The position numbers and the translations under genes were made by a program. 64,000 bases of DNA from Crenobacter caeni. GTDB taxonomy: Bacteria; Pseudomonadota; Gammaproteobacteria; Burkholderiales; Chromobacteriaceae. The stretch spans positions 1 through 64,000 of the forward strand of contig NZ_JAAGAA010000003.1 in assembly GCF_010435965.1 (NCBI RefSeq). Reading direction: 5' to 3'. Numbering within the stretch: position 1 is the first letter of the stretch; each line of letters opens with the position of its first letter. The notes under the pieces were generated by a model. It saw only the letters and a list, made by a program, of their open reading frames with translations, made no database searches and had not been told where the DNA came from. Below, piece after piece: positions 26,113 through 29,378 of the stretch.

Positions 26113-27750
26113 GTGGAACGCGAATATATGGAATACGACGTGGTGGTCGTCGGCGGCGGGCCTTCCGGCCTGGCCGCGGCCATCCGTCTGAAGCAGCTTG
26201 CTGCGCAGACCGGGCAGGACCTGAGCGTCTGCCTGCTGGAGAAAGGCTCCGAGGTCGGCGCGCATATCCTGTCCGGCGCGGTGATCGAGCCCAGGGCGCT
26301 CGAAGAGCTGTTCCCGGACTGGAAGGAACGCGGCGCGCCGCTCAATACGGCGGCGAAGAAGGACCAGTTCCTGCTGCTGACCGAGACCGAGTCGGTGCAG
26401 CTGCCGACGCCGCCGCAGATGCACAACGAGGGCAACTACATCGTCAGCCTCGGCAACGTCTGCCGCTGGCTCGCCCAGCAGGCCGAAGAGCTCGGCGTCG
26501 AGATCTACCCGGGCTTTGCCGCGGCCGAAGTGCTGTACGACGAGGACGGCGCGGTCAAGGGCGTGGCCACCGGCGACATGGGCATCGGCAAGGATGGCGA
26601 GAAGACCGACGCCTGGCAGCCGGGCATGGAGCTGTGGGCCAAGCAGACCGTGTTCGCCGAAGGCTGCCGCGGCTCGCTGACCAAGACGCTGTTCGACCGG
26701 TTCGACTTGCGCCGCGACTGCGACGTGCAGACCTACGGCATCGGCATCAAGGAATTGTGGGAAGTCGCGCCCGAGCAGCACGAGGCAGGCAAGATCGTGC
26801 ACACCGTCGGCTGGCCGCTGAAGAACGACACCTACGGCGGCACCTTCCTCTACCACCTGGAGAACAACCAGGTGGTGGTCGGCTTCGTGCTCGGCCTTGA
26901 CTACCAGAACCCCTACCTGTCGCCGTTCGAGGAGTTCCAGCGCTTCAAGACCCACCCGGCGATCCGCAAGACCTTCGAAGGCGGCCGCCGTCTGTCGTAC
27001 GGCGCGCGCGCGCTGTCCGAAGGCGGCCTGCAGAGCCTGCCCAAGCTGACCTTCCCGGGCGGCGTGCTGGTCGGCGACACCGCCGGTTTCCTCAACATGC
27101 CGAAGATCAAGGGCACGCATACCGCGATGAAGTCGGGCATGCTGGCCGCCGACTCGGTGTTCGAGCTGCTGTGCTGCGAAGGCCAGGAAGGCAAGGAGGC
27201 GAAGGCCTACCAGGGCAAGTTCGAGAAGAGCTGGCTGTTCGACGAACTGCACCGCGCGCGCAACATCCGCCCGTCGTTCCGCTGGGGGCTGTGGGGCGCG
27301 ATGGCGTACGCTGCGCTCGACACCTATCTGTTCCGCGGCAAGGCTCCGTGGACGATGCGCCACAAGCACAGCGACCACGAATGCCTGCGCCCGGCCGACG
27401 AGTTCAGCCCGATTGCGTACCCGAAGCCGGACGGCAAGCTGACCTTCGACCGGCTGAGCTCGGTGTTCATCTCGAACGTCAACCACAGCGAAGACCAGCC
27501 GCCGCACCTGAAGCTGAAGAACGCCGCGGTGCCGATCGAGGTCAACCTGGCCAAGTACGCGGCGCCCGAGCAGCGCTACTGCCCGGCCGGCGTGTATGAG
27601 ATCGTCGGGCTGGATGAGGCTGAGCCGCGCCTGCAGATCAACGCGCAGAACTGTGTGCACTGCAAGACCTGCGACATCAAGGACCCGACGCAGAACATCA
27701 ACTGGACGACGCCGGAAGGCGGTGGCGGGCCGAACTACCCGAACATGTAA
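26113..27750 (+). CDS. Electron transfer flavoprotein-ubiquinone oxidoreductase
   Basis: The 545-residue membrane-associated flavoprotein takes electrons from ETF and reduces ubiquinone, serving acyl-CoA dehydrogenases such as GcdH. The FAD motif VVVVGGGPSGLAAAIRLK starts at about residue 9. A single 4Fe-4S cluster is held by cysteines at about 490, 514, 517 and 520, the last three in NCVHCKTCDIKDPTQNINW, a diagnostic ETF-QO segment. The GTG at 26113 has AAGGAG five bases upstream; the ATG at 26128 is too far from it. No etfA or etfB genes are in the window. Confidence 0.95.
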   Translation: MEREYMEYDVVVVGGGPSGLAAAIRLKQLAAQTGQDLSVCLLEKGSEVGAHILSGAVIEPRALEELFPDWKERGAPLNTAAKKDQFLLLTETESVQLPTPPQMHNEGNYIVSLGNVCRWLAQQAEELGVEIYPGFAAAEVLYDEDGAVKGVATGDMGIGKDGEKTDAWQPGMELWAKQTVFAEGCRGSLTKTLFDRFDLRRDCDVQTYGIGIKELWEVAPEQHEAGKIVHTVGWPLKNDTYGGTFLYHLENNQVVVGFVLGLDYQNPYLSPFEEFQRFKTHPAIRKTFEGGRRLSYGARALSEGGLQSLPKLTFPGGVLVGDTAGFLNMPKIKGTHTAMKSGMLAADSVFELLCCEGQEGKEAKAYQGKFEKSWLFDELHRARNIRPSFRWGLWGAMAYAALDTYLFRGKAPWTMRHKHSDHECLRPADEFSPIAYPKPDGKLTFDRLSSVFISNVNHSEDQPPHLKLKNAAVPIEVNLAKYAAPEQRYCPAGVYEIVGLDEAEPRLQINAQNCVHCKTCDIKDPTQNINWTTPEGGGGPNYPNM

Positions 27751-27770
27751 GTGTTGGTAGCCCCAAGGAG

Positions 27771-27798
27771 CCCGGCCCCGCGCCGGGTTTTTGTTTTC
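27771..27798 (+). terminator. Rho-independent terminator of ETF-QO
   Basis: A 6-bp GC stem CCCGGC/GCCGGG with a 5-nt loop is followed by TTTTTGTTTT. It lies 20 bases after the stop codon and would isolate the downstream leader region from upstream transcription. Confidence 0.85.
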
Positions 27799-27823
27799 TG
27801 CCAACAGCTTGCCCGCGCCACGC

Positions 27824-27852
27824 TTGACAAGGCGCACCCGCCTTGTCAGGAT
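27824..27852 (+). promoter_or_regulatory. Putative promoter with inverted repeat in its spacer
   Basis: A perfect -35 hexamer TTGACA (27824-27829) is followed 17 bp later by CAGGAT (27847-27852), a weak -10. A perfect 9-bp inverted repeat GACAAGGCG/CGCCTTGTC with a 4-base centre (27826-27847) fills the spacer, so a repressor bound there would block RNA polymerase. Transcripts would begin within a few bases of the leader-peptide ATG at 27860. Confidence 0.5.
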
Positions 27853-27859
27853 GACACGC

Positions 27860-27940
27860 ATGACTACCCGGATCCTCAGCAACGCCGCTTACTATTACTG
27901 GTACCGCTCCAATCATGGCGGCGCCTGCGGACTTGCGTGA
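27860..27940 (+). CDS. Putative 26-residue attenuator leader peptide with Tyr/Trp run
   Basis: A short ORF starts MTTRILSN and then reads Ala-Ala-Tyr-Tyr-Tyr-Trp-Tyr-Arg, with the five aromatic codons at 27890-27904, and ends in TGA at 27938. CAGGA lies eight bases upstream of the ATG; an earlier in-frame ATG at 27851 is also possible. The Gly-Gly codons at 27917-27922 (GGCGGC) can pair with GCCGCC at 27967-27972 in the downstream terminator stem, the arrangement expected of an antiterminator. This is the classical layout of ribosome-mediated attenuation by aromatic aminoacyl-tRNA level. I do not know of a published leader with this sequence, and the downstream genes are not recognisable aromatic biosynthesis genes. 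Confidence 0.6.
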   Translation: MTTRILSNAAYYYWYRSNHGGACGLA

Positions 27941-27960
27941 CCGAAAAACACCAAATCCAG

Positions 27961-27996
27961 ACAAATGCCGCCGCAGCCAGGCGGCATTTGTGCTTT
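27961..27996 (+). terminator. Attenuator-type terminator hairpin after the leader peptide
   Basis: ACAAATGCCGCC (27961-27972) and GGCGGCATTTGT (27980-27991) form a perfect 12-bp stem with a 7-nt loop, followed by GCTTTC, a short U tract. It lies 20 bases after the leader stop codon and about 50 bases upstream of the next gene. Its left arm overlaps the proposed antiterminator pairing with 27917-27922 (or CTGCGG at 27925-27930 with CCGCAG at 27971-27976). Confidence 0.65.
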
Positions 27997-28047
27997 CAGT
28001 CCTCTCCGGCACACGGACCGCCCAGGCAAAGTGGGGCCAGGGAGAAC

Positions 28048-28590
28048 ATGAGCATGGAGCAGGTCCTGAATATCCGCGCATCGGCCGTACCGGCACCGGC
28101 AGCGCTGCTGGCGCTGCGCGTCCTCGCCGACGCCGAGCCGCTGTCCCGTGGCGTACCGCAAGCTTGCCTGCCGCTGGGCGTCGACGTGGCGGAGTCGCTG
28201 CTGCCTGAAGTGCGCCAGTTGGCCATCCTGCTGGCGGCCCGCAGGCAGTTGCCGTGCTCGAGGACGCCCGACCGCCTGACCGACACCGCCGACTGGCTGG
28301 CCGCCCGCATCGTGCTGTTCGAACTCGCCTCGCTCGCGCTGCCGGCTGCCGAGCTGCCGCTGTTGGCCGAAGCCAACGCGCGCATCCGTGCGCTGGGCCA
28401 GGCGCTGGGCCTCTCCCTGCCGACCGCGCAGCTCGCGCCCTTGTCCGATGCGCAGGACGTACTGCTCGTCTACAGCCGGCTGCCGCTGTTGCCCGACGCG
28501 CTTTCGCGGCCACTGGTCGAGCGCTGCGCGCTGATGCGTTCGCTGGTGCGCCTGCGCGCGCAGCCCTTGTTCGCCCGGCTGGGCCTGTGA
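28048..28590 (+). CDS. Hypothetical 180-residue leucine/alanine-rich protein
   Basis: I do not recognise this protein. It is very rich in leucine and alanine, mostly predicted helical, with no signal peptide or clear membrane span. A central tryptophan-containing helix TADWLAARIVLFELASLALP (about residues 77-96) is the most distinctive part. It starts at an ATG with GGAGAA just upstream, directly after the leader peptide and terminator, so it is the first gene they could control. The next gene begins 20 bases downstream and is probably cotranscribed. Function unknown. Confidence 0.6.
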   Translation: MSMEQVLNIRASAVPAPAALLALRVLADAEPLSRGVPQACLPLGVDVAESLLPEVRQLAILLAARRQLPCSRTPDRLTDTADWLAARIVLFELASLALPAAELPLLAEANARIRALGQALGLSLPTAQLAPLSDAQDVLLVYSRLPLLPDALSRPLVERCALMRSLVRLRAQPLFARLGL

Positions 28591-28610: not shown

Positions 28611-28949
28611 ATGGACTACGAAGTGGTATCGCCGGACGACCGGCGTTTCAACAACCTGGTGCTGCTGGTGTACGCGATCCAGGCGATCAGCCTGTTCACC
28701 GGCCTGCCGGCGGTGATCGGCCTGATCATCAACTATCTGAAGCTCTCTGAGATGCGCGGCACCCGCTACGAGAGCCATTTCCGCTGGCAAATCCGCTCGT
28801 TCTGGTGGGCGCTCGCGTGGTCGGTGCTGGGCGGTGTGCTCAGCCTGATCCTGGTCGGCTACCTGGTACTCGGCGCCGTCTGGCTGTGGTTTGCCTACCG
28901 CGTGCTGCGCGGCTTTATCGCGCTGAACGACGGCCGCGCGATGCCGTAA
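28611..28949 (+). CDS. Small integral membrane protein, DUF4870-like
   Basis: This 112-residue protein has about three hydrophobic segments (roughly residues 17-43, 65-83 and 84-100). The order is typical of small DUF4870-like membrane proteins, with the conserved ESHFRWQIRSFWW motif between the first two. NYLKLSEMRGT precedes that motif. The function of the family is not established. The ATG has AAAGGA upstream and the gene lies 20 bases after the unknown 180-residue gene, so both would respond to the upstream leader. A terminator-like hairpin follows. Confidence 0.72.
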   Translation: MDYEVVSPDDRRFNNLVLLVYAIQAISLFTGLPAVIGLIINYLKLSEMRGTRYESHFRWQIRSFWWALAWSVLGGVLSLILVGYLVLGAVWLWFAYRVLRGFIALNDGRAMP

Positions 28950-29165: not shown

Positions 29166-29378
29166 ATGGATCCCGAACTGCTCTCCCTGATCGCCACCCG
29201 TACCATGCCCTACGGCAAGTACAAGGGGATGGTGATTGCCGATTTGCCGCTGGCGTATCTGACGTGGTTTGCCCGCAAGGGCTTTCCGCCGGGCGAGATC
29301 GGCCGCCTGCTGGCGCTGACCCTGGAAATCAAACACAACGGCCTCGCTGACTTGCTGCGGCCACTGAGAAAGCACTGA
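29166..29378 (+). CDS. DUF3820-family small protein
   Basis: The 70-residue protein carries the DUF3820 motif MPYGKYKGMVIADLPLAYL followed by TWFARKGFPPGEIGRLL. The family is widespread and small, and has been linked by name to quorum-sensing-regulated virulence factors, but no biochemical role is established. The gene ends three bases before the ATG of ylqF, so the two are cotranscribed and possibly coupled. Confidence 0.8.
   Translation: MDPELLSLIATRTMPYGKYKGMVIADLPLAYLTWFARKGFPPGEIGRLLALTLEIKHNGLADLLRPLRKH

Follow-up and report, generated by a model that had tools for sequence, protein, structure and literature searches.

Ribosome-mediated transcription attenuators of the trp, phe and his type are known in proteobacteria, and so are synthetase-like proteins that have lost the ability to charge tRNA, such as HisZ, PoxA/EpmA and YadB, which derive from HisRS, LysRS and GluRS. 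To our knowledge, none of these proteins is found under an aromatic leader. Here, we analyzed a locus of Crenobacter caeni at which, in our judgment, a ribosome-mediated attenuator that reads aromatic aminoacyl-tRNA, above all tyrosyl-tRNA, quite likely controls the gene of a degenerate tryptophanyl-tRNA synthetase (TrpRS; pseudo-TrpRS hereafter), a reading made without expression, ribosome-profiling or tRNA-charging data. Among the literature matches listed, judged by title or by the start of the abstract, no paper dealt with this leader or protein, and no paper among the matches listed dealt with tyrosine-led attenuation.

The leader lies in a window of 64,000 nucleotides, the whole stretch of DNA that was analyzed, and the coordinates of every element in the initial annotation were reproduced to the base when the window sequence was read again. 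The elements and the two genes that follow are these:

27824-27852, + strand: promoter, with TTGACA at 27824-27829, a 17-nt spacer and CAGGAT at 27847-27852 (start predicted, not mapped)
27860-27940, + strand: leader peptide ORF of 26 codons, from ATG (27860) to TGA (27940), encoding MTTRILSNAAYYYWYRSNHGGACGLA
27890-27904, + strand: control codons TAC TAT TAC TGG TAC (Tyr-Tyr-Tyr-Trp-Tyr), the invariant Tyr being 27896-27898
27900-27907, + strand: arm 1, GGTACCGC, partner of arm 2 in the protector hairpin (at least 6 of 8 pairs in 66/66 leaders, no excess over arm shuffles)
27917-27925, + strand: arm 2, GGCGGCGCC, partner of arm 1 or, in the antiterminator, of arm 3
27961-27972, + strand: arm 3, ACAAATGCCGCC, left arm of the terminator
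27980-27991, + strand: arm 4, GGCGGCATTTGT, right arm of the terminator, with a weak U tract after it
28048-28590, + strand: regulated gene, encoding a 180-residue, putatively degenerate TrpRS-like protein without HIGH and KMSKS (from models, profile comparison and motif count)
28611-28949, + strand: gene of a small membrane protein, DUF4870-like below the cut-off (by sequence), the probable second operon gene in Chromobacteriaceae

The promoter-like TTGACA, the 26-codon ORF with its five aromatic codons and the 12-bp terminator hairpin of the initial annotation are all present, the stem between 27961-27972 and 27980-27991 being perfect, and the complementarity of GGCGGC (27917-27922) to GCCGCC (27967-27972), on which an antiterminator had been proposed, was confirmed. 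The U tract after the terminator is poor in the window (GGCGGCATTTGTGCTTTCAG) and reads TTTGTTTTT in many relatives. Counting Tyr, Trp and Phe codons as aromatic, the leader run is the sole stretch of at least five in any of the six window frames; 100 sequences simulated from the window dinucleotide frequencies contained no such run. Searching 27600-28300 against Rfam at E up to 5 returned no amino-acid leader family within 27824-28047; the four weak matches in the searched region (best E 0.61) all fall outside 27824-28047, and none is an amino-acid leader family. These sub-threshold matches, one of which resembles the rnk leader and lies at the terminator that ends the upstream gene, were rejected as chance. 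By eye, a 9-bp inverted repeat (TGACAAGGC / GCCTTGTCA) spans the window promoter at 27825-27848; it could be an operator or chance, and it is not evident by eye in the aligned relatives.

The 180-residue protein is present in 139 of the 144 genomes searched from two families, namely 60/61 Chromobacteriaceae genomes and 79/83 genomes of a second family, f44, in which both members of a small-genome genus (g72) are without it. We read f44 as Neisseriaceae because Neisseria (L164) and Conchiformibius (L152) share the leader or the match position with its genomes G467 and G430. A profile search of an order-wide draw of 300 genomes found the protein outside its own family only in f44 (7 genomes). 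Genera with the same protein include Crenobacter, Craterilacuibacter, Chromobacterium, Aquitalea, Pseudogulbenkiania, Paludibacterium and Gulbenkiania. For the analysis of loci, 61 of the 66 listed own-family places were used, leaving out G035:C65 (contig end), G020:C307, G049:C321, G023:C63 (E 0.0037) and G002:C45 (E 0.0088).

At the DNA level, 27820-28060 matches 32 of 101 genomes (its own and 100 relatives). An aromatic leader ORF lies upstream of the pseudo-TrpRS gene in 57/61 Chromobacteriaceae loci, and the same pattern occurs in 4/366 control windows taken from them; L082, L091, L095 and L100, the four that lack the ORF, are all second gene copies. In Neisseriaceae, the leader is present in 7/7 loci of one set, at L152 and L164, and in all 30 search loci read (29 by pattern and L293 by eye), which overlap with the earlier Neisseriaceae loci. 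Leaders of this family were read only in those 30 of the 79 matches that were given as loci, plus L136, L138 and L152. Altogether, 95 leaders reduced to 86 distinct ones, with L293 left out of the 86. A strict pattern, TAYTGGTACCGC-N5..14-GCGGCNCCANG, was found in 42 of the 61 own-family genomes, once in each and always at the pseudo-TrpRS locus, so that within these 61 genomes it never stands apart from the gene, and the reversed pattern had no match in them. The 19 genomes without a strict match (four of genus g1, 13 of g5, G010 and G036) have leaders that, where read, deviate from it. Loss of the reading frame and of the aromatic codons in relatives would have refuted the initial annotation; both are kept in two families, and this conservation supports the trp/phe-type logic it had put forward. 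Judged by this comparative evidence, the predicted attenuator is real and not a product of chance.

The second copies belong to genus g8, four genomes of which carry a further, leaderless pseudo-TrpRS gene elsewhere; three of these four proteins, as called, start later.

The leaders are 23-29 codons long, and the residues ahead of the aromatic run vary among them. The central control codon is Tyr in 86/86 distinct leaders (TAT in 82, TAC in 4), under a search pattern that permitted Tyr, Phe or Trp there. It is followed by Trp in 75/86 and by Gly in 11/86, and the codon after that is again Tyr in 84/86. The runs include YYYWY, YYWY, YFYWY, YWYWY, YSYWY, FYWY, YYYGY and CFYWC, and the 11 leaders read from genus g5, which are those with Gly, have no Trp codon at all. 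Since Tyr is central in every distinct leader and the run is otherwise variable, we take Tyr as the constant signal, with Phe and Trp optional. Of the two amino acids whose codons had been suggested as the control, it is Tyr, and not Trp, that is constant. The preference for TAT at the invariant codon, which is TAC in the window, could bear on queuosine-modified tRNA-Tyr or on a short arm.

A TTGA[CT] motif stands 35-40 nt 5′ of the leader ATG in 65/86 distinct leaders, against 8/430 control windows. The 21 leaders without the motif at that distance are all from Neisseriaceae and must use a different promoter. In the window, the transcription start is predicted at or just before the leader ATG, an inference that has not been mapped. 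The position of the motif and the 17-nt spacer make a leaderless leader ORF probable in Chromobacteriaceae.

Folding of 27890-28000 gave the protector hairpin together with the terminator at -40.5 kcal/mol (z -3.39), and 0/200 shuffles were as stable. Without the right terminator arm, the window RNA folded into the antiterminator at -21.4 kcal/mol, with a z of only -1.14 and 29/200 shuffles as stable. The Trp codon contains the start of arm 1; arm 2 follows the central Tyr codon at a distance of 18-22 nt in 86/86 distinct leaders, and arm 3 starts 40-74 nt past arm 2. A stalled ribosome with its A site on a codon covers about 15 nt downstream, and for stall folding a footprint of this length was masked at the invariant Tyr, with arm 2:arm 3 pairing counted from at least 4 pairs. 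In this computation, the free RNA has arm 2 paired with arm 3 in its minimum-energy fold in 85/86 leaders, compared with 446/1720 (26%) when spacers were dinucleotide-shuffled; the single miss is L301, where the hairpin search probably picked the wrong terminator. In 80/86 leaders, the upstream segment that pairs best with arm 3 overlaps arm 2; the mean z against dinucleotide shuffles is -1.76, and values fall under -1 in 59/86.

Covariation of the pairings, which had been proposed as a check, is seen for the terminator; for the protector hairpin, none is seen above arm shuffles. Terminator pairs 5-11 are paired in 84% of cells, against 73% in arm shuffles, and 0/2000 shuffles reach the observed value; the comparison uses 34 distinct rows, taken from 63 of the 66 leaders (three were skipped, as the core motif differed), and a few rows are register-shifted and lower the observed pairing. 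Arms 1 and 2 form 6 to 8 of 8 pairs in 66/66 leaders, and 1072/2000 arm shuffles reach this pairing, because the changes are mostly wobble. The outer protector pairs change on both sides only in Neisseriaceae (AC/GT, TC/GA, CT/AG), which suggests selection on the hairpin, although the shuffle test shows no excess. Ribosome-free RNA ending before arm 4 folds with arms 1 and 2 paired in only 28/86 leaders, other folds mostly being favored by energy, so the basal state must rest on folding order, that is, on kinetics.

We propose that RNA polymerase would begin at the leader ATG or close beside it, with a ribosome translating the leader behind it. With ample charged tRNA-Tyr, the ribosome would reach the stop codon and cover arm 2, leaving arms 3 and 4 to form the terminator. 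With charged tRNA-Tyr in short supply, and in many species tRNA-Trp or tRNA-Phe too, the ribosome would stall on the aromatic run and cover arm 1, the free arm 2 would pair with arm 3, no terminator would form, and the gene would be transcribed. The product, which has a predicted TrpRS fold, would be a non-charging pseudo-synthetase made upon starvation. The anatomy of the leader, its conservation and the potential for alternative pairing are established by sequence comparison, and stalling on uncharged tRNA and antitermination in the cell are inferred from them.

Sequence searches alone did not identify the regulated protein: profile searches of Pfam, NCBIfam and PDB sequences named no family for it and did not find TrpRS, and with the E limit set at 1, no curated synthetase model of Pfam or NCBIfam matched any of 30 members. 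An AlphaFold model built from 30 own-family sequences (pLDDT 83.5) had TrpRS in 49 of the 50 best matches listed, both with Foldseek (best E 1.7e-3, TM by query about 0.4) and with VIA (top Z 12.7, 143 aligned, rmsd 3.4, model residues 17-180). A model built from nine Neisseriaceae sequences only (pLDDT 80.6) again had TrpRS in 49 of the 50 best matches listed with Foldseek (best E 9.7e-4, TM by query about 0.4) and in 49 of the 50 with VIA (top Z 10.1, 137 aligned, rmsd 3.9). The odd match, entry 3u1v, is a designed esterase that we take to have been built on TrpRS. A TrpRS-like fold is shared by both predicted models.

Comparison of profiles (hhalign) between 70 homologues and 52 TrpRS sequences gave E 4.4e-4, a score of 34.9 and a probability of 34%; column-shuffled profiles scored at most 19.0 (0/100 reached 34.9), and the best of 14 neighbor families used as controls had E 0.047. 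Narrower TrpRS sets were weaker (E 0.012 with the 340-aa type alone), and Neisseriaceae homologues alone against the diverse TrpRS set alone gave E 0.095. When the homologue profile was used in hmmsearch, three TrpRS sequences came first (E 0.0017-0.0034) and an unrelated control fourth (E 0.007). Usable reading frames for these sets came from 11/30 tyrS loci, 12/13 trpS2 loci and 22/30 diverse TrpRS loci. Descent from TyrRS was also considered and is not supported (profile E 0.58 with 11 TyrRS sequences), and global profile alignment with TrpRS yielded nothing usable. The profile alignment pairs ESLLPEIR with QSLVPEL and LAARI with QAADI, in a register that was not compared residue by residue with the structural alignment.

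HIGH and KMSKS are found in 0/70 homologues, an absence that can be read directly from their sequences. All 75 compared synthetases have both motifs; they were chosen by them and are no independent control. The Asp of the tryptophan pocket, which we take to be Asp132 of the Bacillus enzyme and to recognize tryptophan, corresponds by profile alignment to an Arg in 68/70 homologues, at the end of a D[WF]xAAR-type motif, and to Thr in the other two (L096 and L113). With no HIGH or KMSKS and with Arg in place of the pocket Asp, the protein should not charge tRNA. It thus does not qualify as a TrpRS enzyme, and the origin with the best support is kinship with TrpRS in fold and sequence. On the models and the profile comparison, a degenerate TrpRS is the most likely identity, a kinship that is supported by predicted structures and profiles with modest scores. 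The downstream genes had been described as not known to serve aromatic biosynthesis; the first gene does not encode a biosynthetic enzyme, but it is probably derived from TrpRS and hence has a link to aromatic amino acids after all.

The two downstream genes had also been treated as a pair, which applies to Chromobacteriaceae and not to Neisseriaceae: the cluster of the second gene adjoins the regulated gene in 10 Chromobacteriaceae loci and in 0/9 Neisseriaceae loci. Simple ORF picking masked the second gene in other Chromobacteriaceae loci, the window among them. Its product matches DUF4870 (PF09685) with 14.7 bits, below the curated cut-off of 25. In Chromobacteriaceae, the regulated gene is flanked by ETF-QO and by what we take, from its sequence, to be a YlqF-like GTPase. 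In Neisseriaceae, a presumably ubiX-like gene lies upstream of the unit in two loci (L132 and L164), and a presumed small lipoprotein-like gene lies downstream in four (L133, L134, L135 and L137), both names being inferred from sequence. As the flanking genes differ between the two families, reading a role from the neighbors was dropped. Two genes past the first gene of the unit, 29166-29378 encodes a small protein matching PF12843 (putative quorum-sensing-regulated virulence factor).

A parallel for the unit is found at full-length trpS. A canonical TrpRS match is present in 61/61 family genomes, of a 340-aa type, a 400-aa type or both. In 28/30 loci (L170-L199), the 340-aa trpS is preceded by a short leader ORF of its own, such as MNSRNAFASFTWWWRLF, in which Trp codons form a run. 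The run is WWW in 25 of the 28 and SWW behind a Phe run in 3, and GGC/GCC arms directly follow it in the loci examined in detail. Ten of these leaders were detailed, of which L174 and L180 were in the wrong frame, and folds were viewed for eight. The leader of the 340-aa trpS is thus an apparent Trp attenuator on a TrpRS gene. Neither the ~400-aa trpS type nor tyrS has such leaders; small ORFs with three consecutive aromatic residues lie upstream of 1/12 and 3/11, none of them alike. The genome of the window, G001 and G003 have no 340-aa trpS, only two halves of the 400-aa type matching, and they keep the pseudo-TrpRS unit. We propose that this unit probably arose by duplication from a leader-controlled trpS, with W-W-R in the leader becoming Y-W-Y-R and the enzyme losing catalysis. 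These data suggest, without proving it, that both leaders descend from one ancestor.

This parallel also bears on what the leader senses. If it was inherited from a trpS-type Trp leader, the element could respond to tryptophan or to general aromatic supply, with the Tyr codons secondary, as the Trp-run leader in 28/30 full-length trpS loci, the Trp codon in 75/86 leaders and the resemblance of the regulated protein to TrpRS would lead one to expect. We find this rather unlikely, since Tyr is the constant codon and the 11 g5 leaders lack Trp, while three of the four trpS loci read in the same genus (L189, L193 and L198; none was found at L183) keep their leader Trp codons. The constancy of Tyr could alternatively reflect an arrest peptide, in which the nascent Y-W-Y chain binds a free ligand in the ribosome tunnel and stalls regardless of tRNA charging, comparable to TnaC, whose nascent chain stalls with tryptophan as ligand. 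Tyr after Trp or Gly in 84/86 leaders is more constant than a mere count of codons needs, and the distance from the central Tyr to arm 2 is constant as well. However, the residues before the run vary, as does length (23-29 codons), Gly replaces Trp in 11/86, and the runs differ (YYYWY, YFYWY, YWYWY, FYWY, CFYWC) as they would for counted codons; the constancy of W-Y-R is moreover partly explained by the pairing of arm 1, so we consider an arrest peptide improbable. Finally, the leader transcript itself could be the product, as a terminated small RNA or as a leader peptide acting in trans, which the Sinorhizobium trp leader peptide reportedly does. The RNA set free by termination would measure about 130 nt, and leader conservation is strong, but the leader stays beside the pseudo-TrpRS gene in two families whose other neighbors differ, and the strict pattern never occurs apart from that gene in 61 genomes, which makes a product in trans very improbable.

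The protein may likewise be read otherwise, as not derived from TrpRS, with the fold match a generic Rossmann resemblance. Family and PDB sequence searches did not find TrpRS, the Foldseek E-values are modest, and one unrelated control came close to TrpRS in hmmsearch. Yet models from two separate families had TrpRS in 49 of the 50 best matches listed in every structure search, the profile score of 34.9 stands against at most 19.0 in 100 column shuffles, and the alignment with TyrRS reached only E 0.58; we regard a generic resemblance as having little chance of being the explanation. For the tyrosine-led attenuator over a degenerate TrpRS gene, which remains our preferred reading, the role of the protein is inferred, as a starvation-induced regulatory pseudo-synthetase that binds an aromatic ligand, tRNA or the true TrpRS, for which no direct evidence exists. 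Tentatively, it is quite possible that a duplicated, lineage-specific leader-plus-synthetase unit, near universal in Neisseriaceae and Chromobacteriaceae, changed its leader from Trp to Tyr and its enzyme into a starvation-induced regulator, for example one that, as tyrosine becomes exhausted, holds tRNA, TrpRS or an aromatic metabolite.

The unit is a candidate for tyrosine-led attenuation, and a gene that has no Pfam or NCBIfam name is given a probable ancestry together with a probable inducing signal. If the proposal is true, the unit would make it possible to test directly what a catalytically dead synthetase is for when amino acids run short, and it would be a natural case of a leader peptide switching amino acid between paralogues. 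It also points to an undescribed starvation response.

In relation to known systems, three features of trp-type attenuators are present: an ORF with control codons, an intrinsic terminator before the gene and, by computation only, an exclusive antiterminator upon stalling. As in the trp, phe and his attenuators, a short leader ORF and a run of control codons are combined with protector, antiterminator and terminator arms in the classical order and spacing. Unlike in those systems, Tyr is constant and mixed with Phe and Trp, the regulated gene does not encode a biosynthetic enzyme, and a leaderless leader ORF is probable in Chromobacteriaceae. The 340-aa trpS leader also precedes a TrpRS, ends in W-W-R where ours ends in W-Y-R, and has GGC/GCC arms right after the run in the loci examined in detail, but its run is WWW in 25/28 and SWW in 3/28, and it controls an intact TrpRS with HIGH and KMSKS. 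The protein shares with TrpRS (class Ic) the predicted fold over most of its length and the aligned segments ESLLPEIR/QSLVPEL and LAARI/QAADI, and differs in having 180 instead of 340 residues, with the N-terminal part missing, no HIGH or KMSKS and, by alignment, Arg for the Asp of the pocket. Three points are new here: the unit covers two families and nearly all genomes searched, its leader has a constant Tyr codon, and the regulated gene is given a probable identity. Like HisZ, PoxA/EpmA and YadB, its product would be a synthetase paralogue taken over for another task.
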